The translations under genes were made by a program, and so were the position numbers. A DNA stretch of 64,000 nucleotides, from assembly GCF_014695975.1 (NCBI RefSeq), contig NZ_JACJPI010000041.1, forward strand, positions 1-64,000, written 5' to 3'. How positions within the stretch are numbered: position 1 is the stretch's first letter; every line of letters begins with the position of its first letter. This document shows positions 13,279-64,000 of this stretch, piece by piece. The notes under the pieces are model-generated. The model saw only the letters and a list, made by a program, of their open reading frames with translations. It ran no database searches and was not told the DNA's origin. The DNA is from Leptolyngbya sp. FACHB-321 (GTDB lineage: Bacteria > Cyanobacteriota > Cyanobacteriia > Leptolyngbyales > Leptolyngbyaceae).

Positions 13279-15217
13279 ATCGGGTCGAGGAAGGCATTTA
13301 ACCTTCCCCTCCCACACCACCCATCATGCGGGTCCGCAATGGGCGGTTCATGACGATGCGCAAACAAGACTGATGACTTAAACGTATCCTTGAACCTTCA
13401 TCCAAAGTTGTTTAATCGCTAGCAATCCCTGTTGCTCTAACCACTCATTCGTCATTCCCGTATGCGTTGCTAACGTCTTTGACAAGCGCCAATAGCCTTT
13501 ACGACTAATGCCCGTCCAAATCGCCTGACGCTTTGTTGTCCCGAGTTTGAGCAAGTTGGTGATGCGGGTTCTGGGTCTACGCCACTGCTTCCAGTAACAC
13601 ATCCGAATCCGCCGCCTCAACCAACCGTCTAACGCCTCAATGGGACTGTAATGTTGGGAAATGCCGAAGTAGTTCATCCAGCCTCGTAGGTATCGATTCA
13701 ATCGCTCGATTCGTGCTGCCATTGAGACTCCCCAACTGCGTGAGGTTAACCCCTTCAGTCGGTGTTTGAAGTCTTGCAGAGCTTGGCTAGAGGTAAAGAT
13801 CCGAATGCCCCGGAAGGTAAATCCCAGGTATTCGAGGTCTTCGATCCTGACCACCCGACTTTTCTCGCGATTGACCTTCAGCTTCAGCTTTTGGGTTAGG
13901 TAACGGCTAATGTTCGCCATCACCCGTCGCCCTGCCCGTCTACTTTTGACCAGGATCACCAGGTCATCCATATAACGGACAAAGTGATGCCCTCTCGCTT
14001 CAAGCTGTTTGTCGAGATCGTCCAACAGGATATTGGACAATAACGGTGATAAGGGCGACCCTTGCGGCGTCCCCCAGTCCGTCGCCTCAATCGCGCTACC
14101 GACTAACACCCCTGCTCTCAGGTAACGACCTATCAGCCTTAAAAGCACTTTGTCAGTGACTTGCCGGGCAAGGCGGGACATCAAGACATCGTGGTTGACC
14201 GTATCAAAGAATTTCTCTAGATCCAGGTCAACCGCATACCGATAGCCCTCTTTAACAAAGGTCTTCACCTGCCGGATGGCACCGTGAGCAGAACGTTTGG
14301 GTCGGCTCCCAAAACTTGACTCGGAAAATCCAGGGTCAAAGATGGGAGTCAGCACTTGCAGAATGGCTTGTTGGATCACCCGGTCAACGACACAAGGGAC
14401 TCCCAACTTTCGCTCTCCCTTGCCGTGGGGCTTGGGAATGACCACCCGTCGCACGGGACGCGGTTGGTAGTTGCCATTCATCAGGGATTGGCGAATCTCA
14501 CTCCAATGCTCCCGCGCATGGGCTGGGAAATCTTCCAAGGTCATTCCGTCACTGCCGGGTGCCCCTTTGTTCGATTTCACTCGTTCCCAGGCTCGTTTCA
14601 CATTGTCGCGCTCTAAGATTCGCGCCATCAGGTTGTCTAAGGCTGGCTCTCTGTCAGCACGCCAAACCCCATCTCCCCCATGCGGGTTCATTGATGAGCT
14701 TGAGTTGTTCATGGCTCCTCCTTAGTTCATTCATGTTTGTCCCTTCGCTCCCACAAGGGGAACTACTATGGACTCTGCTGACTTCTGTAAGGCTGGACGG
14801 CAGGAGTTTCCTCCTGTCGGGCTGTTCTCGCAGCTTTAGGGTTCTGTGGCTTCCTAACCGTTTCCAGCTAGACCTCAATCAGGCTCCCATGACGGCTTGA
14901 ACCGCTTCCTTACAGACCTCCCCAGATAAGAACGTGAACTGTCCCTGCACAACCGCGTCATTTACTGTGTTCCCTGAACCAGACGGCTTCGTTGTGTTGT
15001 GCCAACTCGCCCCAAGAATCTCAGCCTTCTATGACGTTTCTGTTCGTCGGCTTGCAGGTTTGCCGCTGGCTTCCTTCAGACCCTTCCTCACGGAAGCGCC
15101 CTTGCCTTAGGCTAGTCGTTGTTGTCACTCGGCTCCTATCACTTTCGAGCATTTGGACACTGGTTCTCCGACAGGGGACTTTCACCCCATTAGTTCACGC
15201 CCATGCTGGGCGTACAC
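13279..15217 (-). mobile_element. group II intron
   Basis: Minus-strand 5' end GTGTACGCCCAGCATGGGCGTGAACTAATGGGGTGAAAGTCCCC; RT ORF inside; domain V-like hairpin accgcccattgcggacccgcatgatgggtggt and 3' end cgacccgAT. Confidence 0.75.
13378..14712 (-). CDS. ltrA: group II intron reverse transcriptase/maturase
   Basis: RT motifs incl. GVPCVVDRVIQQAILQVL, AVDLDLEKFFDTVNHD, GTPQGSPLSPLLSNILLDDLD, FVRYMDDLVIL; maturase region LRGWMNYFG. Confidence 0.92.
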   Translation of the reverse strand: MNNSSSSMNPHGGDGVWRADREPALDNLMARILERDNVKRAWERVKSNKGAPGSDGMTLEDFPAHAREHWSEIRQSLMNGNYQPRPVRRVVIPKPHGKGERKLGVPCVVDRVIQQAILQVLTPIFDPGFSESSFGSRPKRSAHGAIRQVKTFVKEGYRYAVDLDLEKFFDTVNHDVLMSRLARQVTDKVLLRLIGRYLRAGVLVGSAIEATDWGTPQGSPLSPLLSNILLDDLDKQLEARGHHFVRYMDDLVILVKSRRAGRRVMANISRYLTQKLKLKVNREKSRVVRIEDLEYLGFTFRGIRIFTSSQALQDFKHRLKGLTSRSWGVSMAARIERLNRYLRGWMNYFGISQHYSPIEALDGWLRRRIRMCYWKQWRRPRTRITNLLKLGTTKRQAIWTGISRKGYWRLSKTLATHTGMTNEWLEQQGLLAIKQLWMKVQGYV

Positions 15218-47079: not shown

Positions 47080-47359
47080 CATCCGTTTAGAATCCCCGCG
47101 CATTGATGCCGGGGAGTAGTCAATCTTGCAGAGTCAGCACGAGCCGCCGCTGACTTTTCACGTGAAAAGACGCTACGTCATTTAGGTGCAGCGATCGCCA
47201 ACGCGCTGAACTAACAGACACAAGCACCAACGCCCTACTTAAAACGCAGTTCACAGGGTCGCTTTCTGGCAAACCATAGTAGAGAGCGCGAGCTTTTGCG
47301 TGTGCAACCCACAATTCTGCAAGGCAAAGTGATCAAAAGTGCTGCCTGCGTGTATAGTT

Positions 47360-47510
47360 GTCCCAAGTCGTCCCGTTTTACCCCGGAACATCCCCAACGT
47401 AACCTTGAATGTCCCAGAGTTTCCCATTCCGTCCCAAGTGTGGCTTCAAATTCCCCAATCAAACCCAGTCTGTCCCAGATAAGCCCAAGCTTGCCCTTAA
47501 CTGTCCCGGG
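47360..47510 (+). repeat. 10-bp phased degenerate iteron array 3 (CCC orientation), candidate parC
   Basis: ttgtcccaagtcgtcccgttttaccccggaacatccccaacgt...gtcccagagtttcccattccgtcccaagtg...gtctgtcccagataagcccaagcttgcccttaactgtccc; C-runs at about 10-bp steps. Confidence 0.9.
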
Positions 47511-47547: not shown

Positions 47548-48891
47548 ATGCCTGAACCACGTGAACCAGTCCCTGTACTACTCGCAATCGACAACGGGTT
47601 GTCAGAAACAAAAGCCTTTTGGAATGTCGCTGGTGAACCTGTCCAACTCATGCGGCTGTCACCAGAAATTATTGAAGTACAGAGCGAAAACCTCTTGGAG
47701 TCTGGGTTGCTCGGCGGTCGTCCAGAAGACAATGCCTTAATTGAAATCATAGACGGGCGGCTCTTTGCTGTTGGTAAGCAAGCACGAGACTTGCGAGGCA
47801 AAAGCCCAGTCGAAGAGACCAAATACCAAATGAGTGTGTATAAGATTCTGGCGACGGTAGGTGCAATCGCTACCAGGTTGGGTGTGACACGGCTTGAACT
47901 CACTATCGCCACCCTGCTACCGTTCAGTGAGTACCAGGACAGGAAAGAGTTTATTGAGCTGCTCAAGGAGCAACTGAGAGAGTTTAATTTTCGGAAAACA
48001 CCGATTCGGTGCAAAATCGAGAGCGTAGCTGTAAAGCCTGAAGGGGCAGGCATTTCAATTAGCTACATGCATAGGGAAGCTAACTTTAAAGATCAGAACA
48101 CCCTGGTACTTATGGTGGGACACCGTGACGCCTCTCTACTACCGTTTGAAGAAGGCAAGCCTCTTACCGGTATGGGTGACCAGTTAGGTGATCAACTCGG
48201 GTTTCTCGAACTGCAAAAACAAGTAGTGACCCGTGCCGCCTTAAACCTAAGTGCACGGAACCAGGTAAGGCTACCGGAATACTTGTTCCGCGCGAAGGCA
48301 GAACCTGAGTACATTCAGCGCATTGCTGAAATGGCTGTAACAGGAACTGAGATCAAGAAAAAAGTGGCTCGTCTCCAAGAAGCCATTACAGCGAGTCAGA
48401 AATGGTACATCAGCACTCTCACCCACTGGATCAAAGCGACACTGGGTCCCTTCCTGTCCACTGTTGATCGTGTGATCATTTCAGGAGGCACTGCGCTTTA
48501 CCTACAAGAAGACCTTGTTGAGTTCTTTAGCGCCTTGCCCAGATTGCATGACCCAGACAGCATTATTTGGGGTGGCTTGGAGTCTCAAGCAGAGATCGAA
48601 GCATGGTTAGGCTCCGAAATTGACACGGAGCTAGCTGTGAGACTGGCGGATGTCTACGGTTTGTATGTTGATACAATGGCCCGCTTCCCCAATTTAGGGC
48701 CTGGGGAAACGGAGTCAGTAACCGAGTTAGACGAAAGTGAAGAAAGCCTCGCTGTAGCAACTACAAGCGAAGAGTTGACTGACACCGAACCCACGAACGG
48801 CAAAGCTAAAGCTGGGTCAAGAAGACAAGCTAAGGACGTCAAACTCCCAGTAGTTCCAAAGCAAAGACAAGGCGCTGCTAAACGGAGTTAA
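47548..48891 (+). CDS. parM: ParM/actin-like plasmid segregation ATPase
   Basis: LLAIDNGLSETKAFWNV (phosphate-1 motif), LVLMVGHRDASLLPFEEGKPL, DRVIISGGTALYLQEDLVEFF (adenosine motif), upstream of small ParR-like ORF. Confidence 0.75.
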   Translation: MPEPREPVPVLLAIDNGLSETKAFWNVAGEPVQLMRLSPEIIEVQSENLLESGLLGGRPEDNALIEIIDGRLFAVGKQARDLRGKSPVEETKYQMSVYKILATVGAIATRLGVTRLELTIATLLPFSEYQDRKEFIELLKEQLREFNFRKTPIRCKIESVAVKPEGAGISISYMHREANFKDQNTLVLMVGHRDASLLPFEEGKPLTGMGDQLGDQLGFLELQKQVVTRAALNLSARNQVRLPEYLFRAKAEPEYIQRIAEMAVTGTEIKKKVARLQEAITASQKWYISTLTHWIKATLGPFLSTVDRVIISGGTALYLQEDLVEFFSALPRLHDPDSIIWGGLESQAEIEAWLGSEIDTELAVRLADVYGLYVDTMARFPNLGPGETESVTELDESEESLAVATTSEELTDTEPTNGKAKAGSRRQAKDVKLPVVPKQRQGAAKRS

Positions 48892-48892
48892 T

Positions 48893-49384
48893 ATGCCGAA
48901 CGAAAACGGGCAAGCACCCAAGGACAACCGACTCAGGTTAAGACTGCAGTCCGGCACCATGCTGGAGCAGACAGTCAACAGACTTAAAGATGACGGCAGA
49001 GACAAGGAAAGGCAGCGTCTTGAAGCAGCGATCTGTGCCTTCTGGGCACCTTATGCCTACCAGGACTCAGAGACCTTACAGGAAGTAGCACTGCAATCAA
49101 TCCTCGATCTCAGTGACCAAATTCTAGAGATTGCCCTACTCGCCAACCTCCCGATCGACCACCTCGATCCAATGCGGTTGAAGGCGAATGCTGTTAGTCT
49201 CAAACAACTGCTTAAAAATTCGGCGGCAGCGACAAGCAGTACCGAAAGCAAGGTCACAATCGGCACTCAGGCAAAACCACCCCAGCCGACCAGTGAGCCA
49301 ACTAACGTAAAACAAAATAGCAGTAGAGCCACAAAACCAAGTGTGACCGCAAAACCAGAAAGAGAGAGCCTCTTTGACGACTAA
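48893..49384 (+). CDS. small ParR-like (RHH-like?) adaptor candidate
   Basis: Starts 1 nt after the parM-like stop; NRLRLRLQSGTMLEQTVNRLKDDGRDKERQRLEAAICAFWAPYA; basic/low-complexity tail. Assignment mainly from operon position. Confidence 0.5.
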   Translation: MPNENGQAPKDNRLRLRLQSGTMLEQTVNRLKDDGRDKERQRLEAAICAFWAPYAYQDSETLQEVALQSILDLSDQILEIALLANLPIDHLDPMRLKANAVSLKQLLKNSAAATSSTESKVTIGTQAKPPQPTSEPTNVKQNSSRATKPSVTAKPERESLFDD

Positions 49385-49455: not shown

Positions 49456-50832
49456 ATGTCTTACCAACCCCTACACCAGAAATACCGACCACAAACATTA
49501 AAGCAACTCGTCGGGCAGGAGGTAATTGCCACCATGCTGGCTAACGCGCTCCGCCAGCAGCGCATTGCTCCGGCTTATTTATTCACAGGCGCACGCGGTA
49601 CCGGCAAAACGTCGAGTGCTCGTATTTTGGCCAAGTCACTAAACTGCTTCAGCGCAAATGTGCCGACACCAGAACCCTGTGGCACCTGCTCAGCCTGTAT
49701 CAGTATTACTAAAGGAGGTGCACTTGACGTTATTGAGATTGACGCGGCTAGTCATACCGGTGTCGACAATATACGTGAGCTCATTGAGCAGTCCCAATTC
49801 CAACCTATGCAGTACCGTTACAAGGTTTATTGCATAGACGAAACGCACATGCTAAGCAACGCGGCATCGAATGCGTTGCTGAAAACACTTGAAGAGCCAC
49901 CCGAGCGCGTGGTGTTCGTGCTAGCAACTACAGACCCACAGAAATTGTTGCAGACGCTTATTTCGCGCTGTCAACGATTTGACTTCCAGCGGCTTCCGAC
50001 TAAAGCAATCGCGCAGCACTTAAAACACATTGCGAACGCAGAAAGAATCGCCATCACAGACAGTGCTCTGATGCTCGTTGCTCAAATCGCTCAAGGCGGT
50101 TTACGAGACGCCGAAACGTTGTTAGACCAACTCAGTTTGCTCAGTGAAGAAATCACACCCCAACACGTGTGGCAGGTAAGCGGTGGTCTCAGTGAACCAG
50201 ACCTGCTGGAAGTCTTAAGCGCTATTCTGCAGCCAGAGCTTAGCCCACTTAAACCGTTACGACGGCTCTGCGACCAAGGACGGACACCCGTTGCCATTGT
50301 CGAAGGACTGCTACGCTTCCTCACTGACCTGCAACAGTTGTGTACAACCGGGTCAAAAGAACGGTTGTACGCTAGTCTGCCAACTACCGTGGCGCAGCTC
50401 AGTATCTTAGCTAAAAGTGTGAGTGTCCCACAGCTGCAGCTACTCAGTGTGCACCTGTCCAGTGCGATCGGACTCATACGGCTAACCAGTCAGCCAGTCG
50501 TCTGGTTAGAGCGTTGCATCCTTGACCTGGCAGTTAATGAACAAGTCACAGTCACAGCAGCAAAGAGCAGCAACCGTTTGTCTGACCTGGATGACCTGTG
50601 GCAACGTGTTGTAGAACACACACCGCCTAACCAGCACCGGCTCTTACAACCCATCAAGCTGGTGGAGCTACAGGAGCAAGTAGCGACGCTAGACGCTCCT
50701 ACACCTGTTGCTTCAGCAACCGTAAAGGCGTACAGCAAAAACATTGAGAACGCCTTCAAAGCCTTGGGTTACTCTGTGGCACTTCGAGTGCATACACAGG
50801 GCACAACCAGGGCTGTAAACAGCCATAAATAA
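49456..50832 (+). CDS. dnaX: DNA polymerase III gamma/tau subunit
   Basis: MSYQPLHQKYRPQTLKQLVGQEVIATMLANALRQQRIAPAYLFTGARGTGKTSSARILAKSLNC...CGTCSAC...EIDAASHTGVDNIRELIEQ. Confidence 0.94.
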   Translation: MSYQPLHQKYRPQTLKQLVGQEVIATMLANALRQQRIAPAYLFTGARGTGKTSSARILAKSLNCFSANVPTPEPCGTCSACISITKGGALDVIEIDAASHTGVDNIRELIEQSQFQPMQYRYKVYCIDETHMLSNAASNALLKTLEEPPERVVFVLATTDPQKLLQTLISRCQRFDFQRLPTKAIAQHLKHIANAERIAITDSALMLVAQIAQGGLRDAETLLDQLSLLSEEITPQHVWQVSGGLSEPDLLEVLSAILQPELSPLKPLRRLCDQGRTPVAIVEGLLRFLTDLQQLCTTGSKERLYASLPTTVAQLSILAKSVSVPQLQLLSVHLSSAIGLIRLTSQPVVWLERCILDLAVNEQVTVTAAKSSNRLSDLDDLWQRVVEHTPPNQHRLLQPIKLVELQEQVATLDAPTPVASATVKAYSKNIENAFKALGYSVALRVHTQGTTRAVNSHK

Positions 50833-50902: not shown

Positions 50903-52708
50903 ATGCCGCCACAAAATGAAGCGAAACGGTCAGACGTAGTGTACGTAGACAGTGCAGCAGCGTTGCATCTCGCCGTCCATAAATTACGCCAAAGACCATT
51001 GTTTGAACCTAGGGCTGTCGACACAGAGACTACAGGTGCCAGACCATATTTTGACAGGCTCAAAGTTGTGCAAATCGCAGTCAGAGGTCTTCCCATTTAC
51101 GTCCTTCAAATCGAAAGAATCCCTAAAAGCGACTGGGCACCGCTACGGGAATATTTAGCAGAATCACGTCTAAATGTCCTCCAAAACGCCAAGTTTGATC
51201 TGAAAATGCTGTCTGCTGAAGACTTGCCTTTAAACGGCAGCATCAAGGACACTTGCCTCCGCTCGAAACTGCTGCATCTAGGGGATTCTGTCTACAACCA
51301 CGACCTCGGATCAATCGTCTATGAGCACCTTAAGGTAAAGTTGGACAAAGATGAACAGAAAAAGTTTGTCGGTGATGAAAGCCGAGCACCCTTAACGACT
51401 GAGCAAATTACTTATTGCGCCGCAGACGTTGAGTTCCTTGAAGCACTAGTTGAGATTATTACAGCGAAGCTCGAACGAAAGGATCAGTTTGAAGGAAGCA
51501 AAATTGTTGCCCGTGCTCAGCGAGAAGAGGGCTTTTTGCCGCTGCTAGCTGCACTAGAACTGAGGGGCTTCTCTGTCAATGAAGACGCACTCACAGAGCT
51601 AGAACAGGACGTAAAGCTCAGGCTTGAAACAATCGAAAAGGTGTTAGTTGGTCTTCTGAGACCCAACTTAAAGCAGTTGAAACTCAATTTCGGCAAACCT
51701 GTAGCGTTTATTCCCACAAAATTCACCGAGCAGGAATTACAAACAGCCTTTCAGCTTGAAGCTGGCACGGAAGCAGAGCTACTCAAAGGACTGGTAAAAA
51801 TGCCGCAGATTGCGTTAGCGCTGGAGCACCGAGTCTTGCTCAAACAGCTGACACTGTGCCAACAAACTGTGGCAGGTGTCAATCCAGTCACAGGGAGATT
51901 ACACCCTCAACATAATCAGGTCGAAAAAATGAGTGGGGTTATGAGTGGTTCACGGACAAGAGTGGAACCACTGGAAAATTTGGCTCAGAGCTATCGTAAA
52001 GTGCCGCTTTGTCTACTCCAAGTCAACCCGGGCCAAAAACTCCTTAGAGTTAGTTTCCCTGAACTCGAACTACGCTTGCTTGCGTTTTACAGTCAGGAGG
52101 CGCAACTACTAGAAGATTTTGCAAAGGGAGTGTCGCCCACCCGGAAACTAATGCAAGCACTAGCAGACGCAAACGTGAAATTAACGCCCTATGAGAGGAA
52201 GCGTGTTGCGGAGGCTTTCTGGCACGGACTTGGCATTTTAAATATCAAACACTTTTACCTCCGTCAGTGGCTTTACGCGGAACGAGGGCTAATCTGCTCT
52301 CCTTCTGTAACGAAAACGGTTCAAAACTTATTGGCAAGGCTCTACCCAGGACTGAGCCGTTTCCACGCAGAGATTAACAAAAGACGTTACCGAGACCGAT
52401 GCACCTTATTGGGCGGACTGCGGTGGTGGAAGGGAGCGTCTGATCGAGACGTGCGTCATTTCCTAGTGTGGGGTTCCTCGGACGAGGTCTTAAAAACGGC
52501 CGTTGGCACGGTAAAAGACTGTCCCGAAGGAACCGACCGCATTGTCTTTCTCAACCAGACAAGTTTTTACATTTCCAGCCCTGCAGACCAAAGTAAGGCT
52601 TTAGCAGAGCAACTAGAACTTCAACTAAGCGCTCAATTGACACAAACGTATCCACAAATTGCGATCGCAGTGCAAGCCGAAATATTTCAAAATTGCAACC
52701 CGGCGTAA
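50903..52708 (+). CDS. 3'-5' exonuclease (DEDDy) fused to a DNA-polymerase-A-like domain lacking polymerase catalytic residues
   Basis: Exo I AVDTETTGARPYFDRLKVVQIAV, Exo II VLQNAKFDLKML, Exo III YCAADVEFLEALV; polA-like region RVSFPELELRLLAFYSQ / ERKRVAEAFWHGLGI / VFLNQTSFYI. Confidence 0.8.
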   Translation: MPPQNEAKRSDVVYVDSAAALHLAVHKLRQRPLFEPRAVDTETTGARPYFDRLKVVQIAVRGLPIYVLQIERIPKSDWAPLREYLAESRLNVLQNAKFDLKMLSAEDLPLNGSIKDTCLRSKLLHLGDSVYNHDLGSIVYEHLKVKLDKDEQKKFVGDESRAPLTTEQITYCAADVEFLEALVEIITAKLERKDQFEGSKIVARAQREEGFLPLLAALELRGFSVNEDALTELEQDVKLRLETIEKVLVGLLRPNLKQLKLNFGKPVAFIPTKFTEQELQTAFQLEAGTEAELLKGLVKMPQIALALEHRVLLKQLTLCQQTVAGVNPVTGRLHPQHNQVEKMSGVMSGSRTRVEPLENLAQSYRKVPLCLLQVNPGQKLLRVSFPELELRLLAFYSQEAQLLEDFAKGVSPTRKLMQALADANVKLTPYERKRVAEAFWHGLGILNIKHFYLRQWLYAERGLICSPSVTKTVQNLLARLYPGLSRFHAEINKRRYRDRCTLLGGLRWWKGASDRDVRHFLVWGSSDEVLKTAVGTVKDCPEGTDRIVFLNQTSFYISSPADQSKALAEQLELQLSAQLTQTYPQIAIAVQAEIFQNCNPA

Positions 52709-52804: not shown

Positions 52805-52950
52805 CCCGCTTTGTCCCATATCAGACCTGAAATATCCCGTGTTGTCCCAAGTCGTCCCATTTTCTCCCATTCTGTCCCAAATTGACCCAGTAAGTCCTAA
52901 AGTTGCCTTAAATGCCCCAAAGCTGACCTTACCTGACCCATTCTGTCCCA
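52805..52950 (+). repeat. 10-bp phased degenerate iteron array 4 (CCC orientation)
   Basis: gacccgctttgtcccatatcagacctgaaatatcccgtgttgtcccaagtcgtcccattttctcccattctgtcccaaattgacccag...ttctgtccca. Confidence 0.92.
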
Positions 52951-52968
52951 AATTCGTCAAATCTTCTT

Positions 52969-54072
52969 ATGAAACCAATTGGACATGCCCTGAGTGTACA
53001 GCTACTACAAAACGCTTTAGACCAAGAGCGAATCCACAATGCTTACCTGTTCGTTGGCAGCCAAGGCGTTGGCAAACGGACGCTAGCCCGCTGGCTTGCC
53101 GATCAGTTGCTGTATCTGCCCGGTCAACGACGCTTACTACTGGACGGACACCCAGACTTCTATACCCTGGAACCGCTTGACACTGAAACTGGCAAACGCG
53201 CTGTTATCAAAGTAGACGCGGTGCAGTCCCTCATTCGCTACTTACGTCAACAGCCGTTGGTCAGCAGTCGTAGTGTCATATTGATTGACCAAGCGGACAC
53301 GCTGACAGTCAGTGCGGCCAATGCGTTACTAAAAACCTTGGAAGAGCCGCGTAAAGCGGTGTTGCTATTGACTACAGACCAACTAGACGCAGTGTCCACA
53401 ACAATCCGTTCGCGTTGCCAAACGTTCTACCTGCAGGCGCTTTCAGAGTCCGAGTGTCAGGCTGTATTAGCGCCCTATGTCACACCAGCACCGGCTGAGT
53501 TAGTAGCACTGGCACCCGGTCAACCAGGGCAAATCTTGCAGCATTGCCGAATGGTTAATGCACTGGCACCGATAAGCAGTGCTTTGGCACAAGGCGTGCG
53601 GTCACCCCATGAGTGTTTAGGACTAGCGCAAAGCCTCAAAGCACTGACGCAAACCCAACAGATGTGGCTCATACAGTGGTGGCAGCGCTCACTGTTTGAC
53701 CAGCCGCACCTGTTGGAATGCTTCGATCACGCGATCGCCCAGCTCCAGCAGTCCGTACAACCAGAGCTAGCTTGGGACGTGCTCTTGCTCCAACTGAACC
53801 GCAATGGGGTTTGGGCGGTGACCTTACCAGAGCCAGTAAGCCTGCACGCACCCATGCCAGTCACTGCCGAAGAAGCAGTAGAGCGGACCAAGCTAGCAAA
53901 AAGCCGTCAGGCTCAAAAGTCCAACGGCTCAAAGAAAACAAAAAGCATAGCAACAGTGATACCAGTTGACGTAGAACAGACAACAGCCACCTCAGACGTA
54001 CAAACACCACAAACACCAGCCCTAAAACAGCTCACTCTATTCCCAAAGCGCACTGTTACTGGTAGCTCATAA
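52969..54072 (+). CDS. holB: DNA polymerase III delta' subunit (HolB-like)
   Basis: MKPIGHALSVQLLQNALDQERIHNAYLFVGSQGVGKRTLARWLADQLL...IDQADTLTVSAANALLKTLEEPRKAVLLLTTDQLDAVSTTIRSRCQTF. Confidence 0.9.
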   Translation: MKPIGHALSVQLLQNALDQERIHNAYLFVGSQGVGKRTLARWLADQLLYLPGQRRLLLDGHPDFYTLEPLDTETGKRAVIKVDAVQSLIRYLRQQPLVSSRSVILIDQADTLTVSAANALLKTLEEPRKAVLLLTTDQLDAVSTTIRSRCQTFYLQALSESECQAVLAPYVTPAPAELVALAPGQPGQILQHCRMVNALAPISSALAQGVRSPHECLGLAQSLKALTQTQQMWLIQWWQRSLFDQPHLLECFDHAIAQLQQSVQPELAWDVLLLQLNRNGVWAVTLPEPVSLHAPMPVTAEEAVERTKLAKSRQAQKSNGSKKTKSIATVIPVDVEQTTATSDVQTPQTPALKQLTLFPKRTVTGSS

Positions 54073-54694
54073 AGCTGTGCTGCTCCCAGAACATAACGAG
54101 GCTGTTCAGGACACCCTGCAGATTGCCGTTCTGCAACTCTAGAGACACTCGATCCATATAACCTTCAACTTGTTGACGCTCGACCACCCCGCAATACGAT
54201 ATATAGCGTCTCAAGGCTTCCCGGTAGTCAGCAACGGCAGCAGCATACTCTCCCTGCCAACGTAGCAGGCTTGCCCGCTTCAAGTATGTGTCCACAGTGG
54301 GTTGAATCGTAATTAAGCTGCCCAAGTCAGCGATCGCTCGTTGAGGGCGTTGCTGAGAGTACAAAGCAGCGCGTGCCTGGTAAGCCTCAGCAAAGTTAGG
54401 GTCAAGACTAAGCGCTGTGCCAAAGTCTTGTAAAGCCCGTCCTGTTAACGGACTAACCCAAACGCCTTCCGTCAGAGCTGCAAAGGCCACACCACGGTGG
54501 TAGTAAGCCTCTGCCCAACGAGGACGTTCGTGAATTACAATATCGAGCGCTAGTTTTGCTTCCCAATAAGCTGGCTCCATAAGCATTTCAGGCGAGCCCG
54601 GCAGTGCGGGCATAGTGTTGACATAAAGCAGCTTGAGGGCACAGTTAAACCACATCCGTACCCCGTCTTCTAGCTCACTAACCTTTATAAACAT
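54056..54694 (-). CDS. TPR-repeat protein
   Basis: RWAEAYYHRGVAFAALTEG...ALQDFGTALSLDPNFAEAYQARAALYSQQ...YLKRASLLRWQGEYAAAVADYREALRRY. Confidence 0.85.
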   Translation of the reverse strand: MFIKVSELEDGVRMWFNCALKLLYVNTMPALPGSPEMLMEPAYWEAKLALDIVIHERPRWAEAYYHRGVAFAALTEGVWVSPLTGRALQDFGTALSLDPNFAEAYQARAALYSQQRPQRAIADLGSLITIQPTVDTYLKRASLLRWQGEYAAAVADYREALRRYISYCGVVERQQVEGYMDRVSLELQNGNLQGVLNSLVMFWEQHSFMSYQ

Positions 54695-54919: not shown

Positions 54920-56038
54920 ATGCAAAAACGTACTCCCACTCCCTCTGATTGCGACCCCCAAGCGTTCGCGTTGGCCCAAGACATTGTGTTGAATCCCACG
55001 ATGGGAAAGACCAGCGAGGAACTAGAAACAGCTCAGGCTCTCTACAAGCTGTACAACAGTCTGAGATATGGTTTTAAGACCCTGCTGACGAACTTTATCA
55101 ATGATCGTCAGTACATGGCGGTACGCGATCAGCTGCCCCGTCGCTCCGACGAAAACTTGCCTTCAGCAATGGCTGAGTACAAGGAAGCTCGCAGACGTAT
55201 GATCTATGCGCCTGTCAAAGCCGCAGTCGAGGCATATATGGAGCAAAACTTGCAAGCGGCAGGCACAGAGGCTGAGTTTCTCAAGAACTTTGGTGCCAAT
55301 AGCGAACAAACGATCCGGGCTCTCATTGAGCGCCTGCTCGACCTTGCAGTGGAACGGTACTGGGTAGAAGTGCAGCTCAACCCTGACACTGAAAAGCGGC
55401 AGCCTGAAATCATTAAAGTCAAGCTAGAGGACGGTCGTCCGGTTGAGGTTAGCGAACAGGAGCAGCGAAAGCACATGCGACAGTGTTTGTTACGACTGAA
55501 TCAACAAGAACTCGAAGCGAGACAGCGCCAATTCGGCAATCGCTCGAATACTCATAAAGAGAGCCACATTGACACAGTCATGGCGAGAGGTGGACCCGTC
55601 GCTCAACCTGGTGCGTCTAACTTCGTCGTTACAGAGCAATCAGGTGTGGGGCAGTACTGTGTGCTGCTGCTGGACTTTAATACGAGTGAGTGGGAGTGCT
55701 TGGCGCGCCTTCGCAACCAACAAAGCAGCTTTACCTACGCTGACGAACAACGGAAAGCAGCACCTCAAGGAGTGCTCATTCGAGCCTTTCGGGACGCACA
55801 AAACGAGTTCCCCTTAGGGACGGTTGGAGCGTTGCAAGACATAGATTGCAAGTGGCGCAAGCCGCTCCAAATCCCGCACCTTCAAGCACGCGAAGGACAA
55901 GCGCCTGTGCTGGTGTCATTCATGGACACCAAACGGATTGAGGGCACCTGGTACATGAACGCTCTAATTGAAATGCTGGAGGAGTACAAAGTGCAGTTTC
56001 ACCGCAAATCTGAGGCTACCGTCACTATTGCGGAGTAG
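54920..56038 (+). CDS. hypothetical plasmid protein
   Basis: 372-aa ORF, no recognised family. Confidence 0.65.
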   Translation: MQKRTPTPSDCDPQAFALAQDIVLNPTMGKTSEELETAQALYKLYNSLRYGFKTLLTNFINDRQYMAVRDQLPRRSDENLPSAMAEYKEARRRMIYAPVKAAVEAYMEQNLQAAGTEAEFLKNFGANSEQTIRALIERLLDLAVERYWVEVQLNPDTEKRQPEIIKVKLEDGRPVEVSEQEQRKHMRQCLLRLNQQELEARQRQFGNRSNTHKESHIDTVMARGGPVAQPGASNFVVTEQSGVGQYCVLLLDFNTSEWECLARLRNQQSSFTYADEQRKAAPQGVLIRAFRDAQNEFPLGTVGALQDIDCKWRKPLQIPHLQAREGQAPVLVSFMDTKRIEGTWYMNALIEMLEEYKVQFHRKSEATVTIAE

Positions 56039-56331: not shown

Positions 56332-57840
56332 ATGCAAACTCCCGAAACCGCTTTCAAAGACATGCCTGAATTTCCTGAGCGGACACAACGACCAGCAGCA
56401 ACCGCGTCCCAGTGGGCACACTATGCACCAGTCAGAAAAGCAGGTTATGAGTGTTCTACTCAAGGTGATCGCCGCTTCAGTGCCCTCTATGCAAAGCTGA
56501 GCGACGGACGGACGATTGAAGAGGCGTGTCAACTGGACGTAAAGGGGTACCGAGTGCAAGGCAATGACTGGCGCTTAGGGAAAGGCAAACTGCTGCTGAA
56601 ACCAATGCCTATAGAAGCATTGCATAGCCAGTACAAAAGTCTCTGGCAACGGTGGGCAACCGAGAACCCTGTGCTCATGGATACATTGACAACTGCAGCA
56701 GAAGGCAAAGTGCTGACTGACAAGTTTGCCCGTACACCCATTTCACAGGCACAGGTGCTGGCAGAACTGCTGTTCGTTCAGCAGTTAGACGCAGCTGAAG
56801 TCAGCGACCAAGCAACGGCTTCACCTGATCGTATCACCGCTCTAGAGCCATACCAAGTGTTTATGTTCGTCGGCAACACTCAGGGACGGCACGGTAAAGG
56901 AGCTGCCCTCCAAGCCATGAAGTTCGGTGCAGAATACGGCAACCCATGTGGACGGCAGGGTCAAGCTTACGCGATTGTGACCAAAGATTTGACGAAGCCC
57001 AAAGAGCAGCAGTTACGCTCAGTCCCCTTAAACGAGATCGAGCAACAGATCAGTGTGTTCCTGGAACATGCGATCGCACACCCTAAGCATGAGTTTCTGG
57101 TCACTCGCTTCGGCTGCGAACTGGCAGGCTACTCAGAGACCGAAATAGGCGGACTGTGGGTTGGGAAAGCAGTGCCCACAAATGTGAAACTGCCCCAAGC
57201 CTTTCTTAACGTCGTGCAGGCAGCAGCTCTAGAGCCAGCGATCGCACCAAAAACACCAACCACAAAAGGAGTAGAGACAGTGGTACCTAAACCAACAACA
57301 CTCGTTGTCATTTCAGGTGGACAAACCGGAGCGGACATAGGTGGACTGAAGGCAGCCCATGCATTAGGGCTTCAGACAGGCGGCGTTGCCCCTTACGGCT
57401 GGTTAGTCGAGTGCTGTGCCCGATTTCCCAATGGCACAAATCCCCGTTTGGCTGATTATGGCTTGGTTGAAGGTCCGTGCGGTAATAGTGCCGGTCACAC
57501 GTACATACTCCGCACTGAACTCAATGTAAAGCAATCAGACGGCACCCTAGTTCTGGGCAGCATTGACCCTAAACAGGACAAAGGCACTTTTCGCACTGTA
57601 GAGCTGGCTGACAAGCATAGGAAACCCTGCCTGCACCTTAGTACCGCCAACTTGTTCAAGCACCCTAACGAGCCCGTACAACGGATTAAAGACTGGGTTT
57701 TAGATGAGGGCATTCAAACGCTAAACGTCGCTGGCAATCGCGAATCCAAGTGCCCTGGATTAGAAGACAGAGTGGAGACCGTGCTGAAAGTTGCACTGGC
57801 AGAAATCGTAAGAGTAAGGTCAGAGCTTGCAATGAATTAA
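56332..57840 (+). CDS. multidomain protein: middle A1S_2505-like region plus C-terminal putative molybdenum-carrier (SLOG-type) domain
   Basis: YQVFMFVGNTQGRHGKGAALQAMKFGAEYGNPCGRQGQAYAIVTKDL...FLVTRFGCELAGYSETEIGGLW; LVVISGGQTGADIGGLKAAHALGLQTGGVAPYGW...SDGTLVLGSIDPKQDKGT. Confidence 0.75.
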   Translation: MQTPETAFKDMPEFPERTQRPAATASQWAHYAPVRKAGYECSTQGDRRFSALYAKLSDGRTIEEACQLDVKGYRVQGNDWRLGKGKLLLKPMPIEALHSQYKSLWQRWATENPVLMDTLTTAAEGKVLTDKFARTPISQAQVLAELLFVQQLDAAEVSDQATASPDRITALEPYQVFMFVGNTQGRHGKGAALQAMKFGAEYGNPCGRQGQAYAIVTKDLTKPKEQQLRSVPLNEIEQQISVFLEHAIAHPKHEFLVTRFGCELAGYSETEIGGLWVGKAVPTNVKLPQAFLNVVQAAALEPAIAPKTPTTKGVETVVPKPTTLVVISGGQTGADIGGLKAAHALGLQTGGVAPYGWLVECCARFPNGTNPRLADYGLVEGPCGNSAGHTYILRTELNVKQSDGTLVLGSIDPKQDKGTFRTVELADKHRKPCLHLSTANLFKHPNEPVQRIKDWVLDEGIQTLNVAGNRESKCPGLEDRVETVLKVALAEIVRVRSELAMN

Positions 57841-61815: not shown

Positions 61816-64000
61816 ATGTCAGTAGTTACAACCTGTGGTTCTAAGTCCGGGGTATGGGACAGACTCCCGACCGCTTTCCCTCACCCTCAAGCTCATCGCA
61901 GGCGACTGCAAGGGCAACTTTCAGCTTTAACGCATATGCTGCAACAATTTAAACTGACCAAACCCCAGACTCAAGCTACTAAGCCAGTCGTACCAAACAC
62001 ACATCTTGACCCAGAGTGGTTGCAACGTTCCAAGACCGTGCGGCAAAAGGTGCGCGACACACTCACAGCCATTGAGACGGTCAAAGCGCTGCAAACAGGC
62101 AAACAGGAACGGACGGACACTGACGCGCAACGTCTGAGCTGTTACTGGGGCATGGGAGTGATGACGCCGTTGTTCAAAGTGCCCGTAGAACCAGCGTGGG
62201 TGAAAGACGCAGAGCAGCTGCAAGCACTACTGACCGACGAAGAGTACGCCAAGGTACGCTCGACCATTAACACGGCGTACTACACGCCCACGTACCTCAT
62301 CGACTTCATTTACCGGGTGCTGGCACGGTTTGGCGTCAGGGGCGGTAACTTCCTTGAGCTTGGTTGTGGACCCGGTTGGTTTCTCGGACTGGCTCCTCAA
62401 GCGTGGAAAGTGAAGTGGACAGGGGTTGAAACAGAACCCATAAGTGCCGCGATCGCAGCACAGCTTTACCCACAAGCTGTAGTGGTCAATCGTCCGATTG
62501 AACGGACACGGTTAGCTTTTGACTTCGATGTGGCAGTAGGGAACGTCCCTTTCAGTGAAGTGGTGCCCTACGACCCACAGAGTCAGTTGCGTTCCCTCGG
62601 TGGTGTGCATGACTATTGCCTCATGCGCGAGATCGAAGCACTCAGACGCGGCGGCCTTGGGGCAGTGTTAACGTCCATTGGTACGCTTCAGTCCAAGAAG
62701 TCGCAACCCTTTCGTGAGTGGGCAGCCCAACGGGTGAGACTCATTGCCGCGCTCAAGCTACCAATGGGTGCCTTGAGTGAGAGTTCCAACACAGACGCAA
62801 GTTCCGACCTGCTGATCTTCCAGAAGCTCCAGGAAGACGAAGAGGGTAATGCTGACGAGTGGGTGAACTTGGTGGAAAGCCCGATCGTGAATGAAGAAAC
62901 GCAAGAGCCGTTTCTCATGAATCAGTGGTTTCAGTCGCACCCAGAGCACCTGCTAGGCAAACTTGGGCGCGACAAGCTCTACGGTGCGGGACGGTTAGCG
63001 CTTGAACCAGAAGGCGATGTCGAGGCCTTACTAGCAGGTGTCTTAGAACGCCTGCCACAGCAGATCTATGAAGCACCCCGGTCACAGAAGCAGTACCAGG
63101 AACCAGACACAAAGGCGATGCCGCTCGACATGCAGGAGACTAAGCCCTTTGCCTTCGTATGGCACGAAAACGAACCGTGGCAGTGCCGGGACGGCATACT
63201 GAAGCGGGTGAAAGTCAAGGGCACAGCACGTAAGCGCTTATGGTGGCTCATCATGATCAAAGAAGCCGCCCGTAATGTTGTGCAAGTGCAATGGGAGTCT
63301 GACGACGACGAACAACTAAAAAAAGCACAGAAACGCTTAGAGCGGCTCTATGACGAGTTTACGGGTTTGAGCAACATGGGTTGGTTGCACAGTCAGGGCA
63401 ACAGTAACGTCTTTGGGAACGACCCAGACTACCCATTACTGTTAGCCTTGGAGACATGGGATCCAGACTATCCAGAACTAACTCGCAAAGCAGACATTTT
63501 CAGCAGACGCACGATTAAGCACGTGCAGTCTGTGGACAAAGTAGAGTCTGCCGCAGAAGCGCTCGTTCAAAGTAACCTCGAACAGGGACGCATTGACCTA
63601 GAGTACATGAGCCACATCTACGGCAAGCCTGTAGATGAAATTCTGGTTGAACTTCAGAAAGAAGAGCATCCACTGGTCTTCCATGACCCGGTAACGCAGC
63701 AGTGGGTGTCTGAGGACGAGTACCTCAGTGGCAACGTCCGGGAACGGCTGGAAAAGGCAGAGCTAGCAGCCCGCACGGTCCCGAACTACCTGTTCAACGT
63801 CAAAGCACTCCAGGCAGTGCAGCTAAAACCAGTGGAACCGGGCAAAATTTATGCCCGACTGGGTTCCCCATGGCTACCACCAGAGATCATTGTCGAATTC
63901 ATTCGTTACGTGCTGGAGTTGCCAGCAACCCACAAAGTAACGGTTTACAAGAACCCGCGCTCGTCCAAATGGACGGTAGAAGGCGCTGACGTAAGTAGCC
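61816..64000 (+). CDS. large methyltransferase-like protein (N12-class / helicase-methylase type), runs off window end
   Basis: Open frame from ATG 61816; NTAYYTPTYLIDFIY, FLELGCGPGWFLGLAP (SAM motif I), VAVGNVPFSEV (N-P-P-F-like motif IV). Confidence 0.75.
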   Translation, partial: MSVVTTCGSKSGVWDRLPTAFPHPQAHRRRLQGQLSALTHMLQQFKLTKPQTQATKPVVPNTHLDPEWLQRSKTVRQKVRDTLTAIETVKALQTGKQERTDTDAQRLSCYWGMGVMTPLFKVPVEPAWVKDAEQLQALLTDEEYAKVRSTINTAYYTPTYLIDFIYRVLARFGVRGGNFLELGCGPGWFLGLAPQAWKVKWTGVETEPISAAIAAQLYPQAVVVNRPIERTRLAFDFDVAVGNVPFSEVVPYDPQSQLRSLGGVHDYCLMREIEALRRGGLGAVLTSIGTLQSKKSQPFREWAAQRVRLIAALKLPMGALSESSNTDASSDLLIFQKLQEDEEGNADEWVNLVESPIVNEETQEPFLMNQWFQSHPEHLLGKLGRDKLYGAGRLALEPEGDVEALLAGVLERLPQQIYEAPRSQKQYQEPDTKAMPLDMQETKPFAFVWHENEPWQCRDGILKRVKVKGTARKRLWWLIMIKEAARNVVQVQWESDDDEQLKKAQKRLERLYDEFTGLSNMGWLHSQGNSNVFGNDPDYPLLLALETWDPDYPELTRKADIFSRRTIKHVQSVDKVESAAEALVQSNLEQGRIDLEYMSHIYGKPVDEILVELQKEEHPLVFHDPVTQQWVSEDEYLSGNVRERLEKAELAARTVPNYLFNVKALQAVQLKPVEPGKIYARLGSPWLPPEIIVEFIRYVLELPATHKVTVYKNPRSSKWTVEGADVSS

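Follow-up and report, generated by a model that had tools for sequence, protein, structure and literature searches.

A 2026 survey of bacterial DNA polymerases distinguishes, in its A-family section, PolA1, the exonuclease-dead PolA2, and PolA3, and the portions of the survey used here describe the proofreading site as generally less conserved than the polymerase, with named exceptions such as the PHP domains of the PolX family (PMC12926913). A natural A-family group with its polymerase lost and its exonuclease retained does not feature in the A-family section or the discussion of that survey, and no described polymerase-dead A-family protein was found in the literature searched, in which subscription journals are thinly covered. 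Set against the pattern in those sections of the survey, a natural A-family lineage with a dead polymerase and an intact exonuclease is an exception, one whose fold and gene context are known. Two precedents come from elsewhere. In Pol epsilon, a naturally dead B-family polymerase module is kept in the replication machinery, fused to an active polymerase and with its exonuclease also dead (PMC2669801). In Pol gamma, a family A enzyme, polymerase-defective and exonuclease-proficient forms bind DNA like the wild type, show raised exonuclease activity, and complement an exonuclease-minus enzyme in trans (PMC4773887).

Here we describe a protein encoded in a 64,000-nucleotide stretch of DNA from Leptolyngbya sp. 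FACHB-321, hereafter the window. The open reading frame (50903–52708, + strand; 601 aa) is co-directional with dnaX (49456–50832) and holB (52969–54072), which flank it as a preliminary description of this DNA had indicated; we call the protein PolX, as a label for this locus. Like the PolA2/APEX proteins of Actinobacteria, as the A-family section presents them, PolX belongs to family A, has no 5' nuclease, and has lost one activity. Those proteins are nonetheless its mirror image, with a dead exonuclease and a living polymerase, whereas the exonuclease residues of PolX are intact (PMC12926913). The Pol gamma A mutants share with PolX the family A fold and the combination of exonuclease proficiency (predicted, for PolX) with polymerase deficiency, but they carry engineered single substitutions at the equivalents of Q849 and H881, whereas PolX has naturally lost both catalytic aspartates (PMC4773887). 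Pol I (PolA1) has an N-terminal 5'–3' nuclease domain, whereas PolX begins at the exonuclease domain and a separate, chromosome-type PolA is encoded on contig C26. The stand-alone DEDDy exonucleases RNase D and NrnC have a homologous exonuclease domain and no polymerase body, in contrast to the complete Klenow fold of the PolX model.

The best NCBIfam match of PolX is PRK14975, at 183 bits and thus below the equivalog score of 640 bits. Proteins of this type, e.g., WP_015186145 of Allocoleopsis plasmid pMIC7113.01, resemble PolX in the absence of a 5' nuclease, the exonuclease site, length, and a cyanobacterial plasmid setting just downstream of dnaX; unlike PolX and two relatives described below, they have an intact DYSQIE-type motif A, motif B lysine, and HDE. 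By sequence, PolX is therefore closest to the plasmid and phage group of bifunctional 3'–5' exonuclease/DNA polymerases and not to chromosomal Pol I. The preliminary description had proposed a PolA-derived exonuclease or structural replisome factor. That frame suits the dead polymerase, the fold, the exonuclease residues, and the setting, but the derivation is nearer to the PRK14975 type than to chromosomal Pol I.

The 3'–5' exonuclease domain (aa 30–205; 50990–51517) retains every DEDDy active-site residue (D40, E42, D99, Y171, and D175). These lie in the motifs DTE (40–42), NAKFD (95–99), and YCAAD (171–175), which were first read from the single sequence and agree with the alignment of relatives; Pfam DNA_pol_A_exo1 matches with an E value of 2.4e-18. 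A thumb region defined by alignment and model (aa 206–375; 51518–52027) leads into the palm and fingers (aa 376–601; 52028–52705). In motif A (52052–52069), SFPELE replaces DYSQIE and the aspartate has become S384; in motif B (52199–52234; KRVAEAFWHGLG), the catalytic lysine has become E437, both as originally proposed. In the motif C region (52553–52564), NQTS replaces HDE and contains no acid. The initial reading of this motif as NQT coincides with the turn of the model (551–553), but multiple alignments place HDE on Q552-T553-S554, one residue later. Since residues 546–561 include no acidic residue in either register, the choice between them is immaterial. At the two aspartates and the motif B lysine of an active A-family polymerase, PolX thus has S384, T553 or Q552, and E437.

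Further residues lost in the alignment are D411S, H413T, R346V, N519H, Q523W, and R505G. In E. coli Klenow numbering, we take D411S and H413T to correspond to D732 and H734, R346V to R668, and Q523W to Q849. The claim that all metal- and dNTP-binding residues had been replaced was too broad: it holds for both aspartates, the lysine, and further contacts, but the motif A glutamate is retained as E389 (presumably E. coli E710) and the motif B arginine has become a lysine (K433). With E387 close by, E389 leaves an opening for the idea that PolX is a working polymerase that uses other residues; against a motif C region without acid, a glutamate for the motif B lysine, and the loss of most dNTP-contact residues, we find this scarcely credible. 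Judged from these residues, the polymerase site is near certain to be dead. The invariant columns are unevenly kept: conservation in active relatives reaches 90% or more at 41 columns of the palm and fingers, 13 of which PolX retains, against 21 of 28 in the exonuclease domain.

In line with the initial claim that the family A fold remains, Pfam DNA_pol_A matches PolX with 44.9 bits (cut-off 34.3), although the aligned part covers only residues 229–493. An AlphaFold2 model built with 64 sequences (pLDDT 86.4; pTM 0.88) contains the full Klenow fold, including the motif C hairpin, and the expected resemblance to the Klenow fragment was borne out by structural superposition on 1kfs (Z 32.2 over 545 residues; rmsd 3.8). 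The best solved structures for the model were the apicoplast polymerase, by Foldseek, and the Klenow fragment. The predicted structure of a polymerase-dead relative (locus L033; pLDDT 89.5) matched the apicoplast and Aquifex polymerases with Z 27–28. Because the alignments consist mainly of active relatives, model confidence for the dead domain may be inflated. Foldseek searches of viral predicted structures matched ordinary phage polymerases.

With an HMM built from active relatives, both catalytic aspartates were scored in 200 distinct proteins. Both were present in 199 proteins and PolX was the sole exception, which indicates that the loss is not due to chance; as we scored them, exonuclease residues were altered in two of the 200. 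Two more polymerase-dead relatives, L033 and L034, were found, both in a genome of the same genus (G003; Oscillatoriales cyanobacterium Centralia_MAG_596). They fall outside the HMM tally, since their rows failed or did not cover both motifs, and hence their dead state rests on hand-checked alignments. L033, on an 8.5-kb contig, keeps the motif A aspartate and has ASG in place of HDE. L034, on a 6.4-kb contig, has TTFPTLDL at motif A and no HDE; in its exonuclease motif II, the aspartate is a glutamate, a substitution that several active relatives share. The two share a deletion in the fingers.

In a tree of the exonuclease domain only (83 rows), PolX, L033, and L034 form one group with an SH-aLRT of 99.1. 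The tree was built by a quick method and the trio is long-branched, so that attraction is possible, though rows with longer branches stayed outside the group. This grouping supports common descent of the trio and a polymerase loss that was inherited from a single origin. A family survey of the substitutions, as the preliminary description envisaged, thus points to an inherited loss, but the replacing residues are not conserved and differ among the three proteins. Within the trio, identity is 0.33–0.37 in the exonuclease domain and 0.17–0.26 in the palm, whereas active pairs with comparable exonuclease identity (0.32–0.38) have a mean palm identity of 0.39. The order of conservation is therefore reversed, the exonuclease being better conserved than the palm in the dead trio and the palm better than the exonuclease in active pairs. 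Such a pattern indicates that constraint on the palm has been relaxed or changed while the exonuclease is still constrained.

The deep divergence of the palm could also mean ongoing decay. PolX would then be a relic of a plasmid that relies on the host Pol III, an ex-polymerase adrift whose exonuclease persists by chance or weak benefit. The different replacement residues in each member, the fingers deletion common to L033 and L034, and the mobile-element genes that surround L034 would all suit such drift. On the other side stand the retained constraint on the exonuclease and the full-length open frames of all three members. The PolX frame is intact where shuffling the DNA of its 396 thumb and palm codons yields about 20 stops, and the codon-position GC of its thumb and palm is similar to that of the neighbouring genes. 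We regard decay as unlikely, though still a live rival, as no close homologue was found.

Single-sequence scans of genome and viral contigs detected no close relatives of PolX, and alignment-based scans detected 160 relatives. Among these, the rows covering the motifs looked intact except in L033, L034, and L198, although many viral rows do not cover motif C owing to alignment gaps. Searches of plasmid and phage proteins yielded only distant relatives, and all 11 of the plasmid and phage members fetched were intact. The exception L198 (L198:4976–6289) is a chromosomal 437-aa protein of Firmicutes bacterium UBA4881 in which the exonuclease motifs are intact and the A-family polymerase domain is heavily eroded; it lies outside the group formed by the cyanobacterial trio, and no relatives of it were found in five genomes of its class. 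Active exonuclease/polymerase domains were also observed in frames of 3236 and 2520 codons (L047:4683–14390 and L048:7936–15495, both on the − strand), which suggests fusion to other large domains.

The window belongs to a 97,073-bp contig (C36) in which a terminal overlap was not found. Its genes include a ParM-like gene and those for a topoisomerase and a Prim-Pol protein, and it appears to be a plasmid, either whole or in large part. The flanking dnaX (+ strand; P-loop present) and holB (+ strand; delta') are second, plasmid-type copies, chromosomal copies being located on contigs C83 and C61, respectively. Upstream lie a gene for a ParM/actin-like partition protein (47548–48891, +) and a 163-aa ORF between parM and dnaX (48893–49384, +) for which no family was found. 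Downstream are a TPR protein (54056–54694, −) and the replicon-specific orf372 (54920–56038, +), homologues of which lie beside the plasmid dnaX and holB of L033 and a further locus, L111. As a replicon marker, orf372 was found in only five genomes among 388 of the class. Sequence searches of C36 with phmmer found no HolA, DnaN, PolB, or SSB, and searches of the genome with PF00712 and PF07733 found a single DnaN and a single DnaE alpha region, neither of them on C36.

Gene order in L033 matches that of the window, i.e., dnaX, PolX, holB, a reverse-strand ORF at the place of the TPR gene, and orf372. The four aligned pairs are 48%, 30%, 36%, and 28% identical, and upstream there are ParA/ParB-like genes in L033 versus ParM in the window. 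Conservation of the operon order at about 30% identity argues against decay. The dnaX-holB slot also bears on the possibility that PolX is a structural replisome factor, in which a Klenow-like body would serve as a platform linking DnaX/HolB, the clamp, and the template, with the exonuclease secondary. The conserved slot, a modelled fold kept without its active site, and the precedent of the Pol epsilon C-terminal module speak for such a role; yet conservation is highest in the exonuclease, which keeps all DEDDy residues in two of the three members, and the Pol epsilon module has lost both activities (PMC2669801). We consider a primarily structural role quite unlikely. Taken together, an intact exonuclease, a lost polymerase, and a polymerase-dead relative in the same gene order suggest that a polymerase has turned into a replication-linked exonuclease.

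Several other features were observed on the contig. Clusters of direct repeats centred on TGTCCCA, several of them spaced about 10, 20, or 30 bp apart, occur upstream of holB (52805–52954) and parM (47359–47510), and are possible iterons or a partition site. The Prim-Pol domain protein (C36 66982–68046; L284:2982–4046) is a candidate plasmid primase. A large methyltransferase/SNF2-helicase-like protein resembles one downstream of orf372 in L111; it was read in two pieces (window 61816–64000 and contig 64141–66894), because the window ends inside it. The window also encodes a group II intron reverse transcriptase/maturase (13378–14712, −) and an A1S_2505-type phage domain joined to a circularly permuted YpsA/SLOG domain (56332–57840).

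Related plasmids show what the position near dnaX can hold. In Allocoleopsis pMIC7113.01, an active exonuclease/polymerase is the second gene past dnaX, and holA, ssb, and holB follow at a greater distance. The order dnaN, dnaX, zero or one gene, a B-family polymerase, and further on holA and holB is found in plasmids of Chroococcidiopsis, Scytonema, Gloeothece citriformis, Anabaena, and Tolypothrix. These genes apparently form a plasmid-borne replisome set, in which the B-family polymerase ends in QLSLF. In Trichormus plasmid C, the order is the same and an insertion sequence splits the polymerase gene. Loci of B-family polymerases of about 600 aa include L287:2664–4451, L291:3241–5058, L292:5173–6984, L293:7936–9741 (−), L294:4752–6569, and L288:4768–5703. 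That dead polymerases might be widespread among dnaX neighbours was considered and rejected, as the slot genes of Chroococcidiopsis and Nostocales are B-family polymerase genes that keep the residues of motifs A, B, and C.

From this comparison, the dead polymerase of the window and of L033 lies close to the position of a working polymerase in related plasmids. L. boryana pLBX and L111 have no polymerase between dnaX and holB, which adjoin each other upstream of orf372, and PolX is thus not essential to the clamp-loader module; the existence of dnaX-holB plasmids without PolX would also fit a decaying relic. Another job for the exonuclease, such as processing RNA or 3' flaps, acting in recombination, or attacking competing DNA, is hinted at by matches of its domain to NrnC and RNase D sequences. 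Placement in a clamp-loader operon, at the site that polymerases use in related plasmids, and retention of a DNA-polymerase body make such a job improbable.

A candidate clamp contact is present in PolX itself. The sequence QLKLNF (aa 258–263; 51674–51691, +) lies in a thumb loop that is flexible and has very low pLDDT in the model, and aligns with QLSLF/QLDLF-like motifs of the clamp-binding type. These motifs recur in the thumb loop of many active relatives (e.g., L113, L133, and L097), and the loop is absent from canonical Pol I. The clamp-motif pattern occurs in the thumb-loop region of 23 of the 64 aligned proteins versus 5.4% of sequence windows elsewhere in those proteins, though the sequences are related and the 23 are therefore not an independent count. 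L033 and L034 lack QLKLNF and its glutamine. Near the HolB C-terminus, a second motif of this type, QLTLF (54028–54042, +), has counterparts in other HolB tails, i.e., QGSLF in L033 and QTDLF in L111 and L. boryana (L111 and L290 tails). These HolB pentapeptides belong to replicons without a holA found nearby, and none was detected in eight other plasmid HolB tails, all with holA in the stretch fetched. By analogy with the known motif type, we infer that these motifs bind the clamp.

Our preferred reading, for which belief and doubt are about evenly matched, is that PolX is a former plasmid A-family polymerase, polymerase-dead and exonuclease-competent, that acts in trans to trim or proofread 3' ends for a host Pol III served by the plasmid clamp loader. 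Its ancestor would have been a plasmid exonuclease/polymerase of the PRK14975 type that lost DNA synthesis and kept the 3'–5' exonuclease. We propose that the dead palm, thumb, and fingers may still grip a primer-template without extending it, so that the 3' end would partition to the exonuclease site, where PolX would trim or proofread it in trans. The partner polymerase copying the plasmid would most likely be the Pol III of the host (DnaE), working on the host clamp, which the plasmid DnaX and HolB would help to load and which PolX might reach through its thumb-loop QLKLNF. The exonuclease activity, DNA binding, clamp contact, and proofreading role are all predicted. Against this reading, polymerase-dead members are few, with three in two genomes, and one of them, L034, has the altered exonuclease motif II and mobile-element neighbours. 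A wider proposal holds that an A-family polymerase was converted once, in a cyanobacterial plasmid lineage, into an exonuclease-active, polymerase-dead replisome subunit with its own clamp loader, which proofreads the host Pol III in trans, the plasmid having lost its own replicase; we hold this tentatively and, on balance, lean away from it.

If its exonuclease is active, PolX would be a natural counterpart of the engineered polymerase-dead Pol gamma. It would also offer a case in which to test proofreading in trans, and would illustrate how plasmids that have turned to the host replicase repurpose their polymerase. The locus also draws attention to cyanobacterial plasmids of a poorly described class, which encode a clamp loader and, in some cases, a clamp and a polymerase as well.
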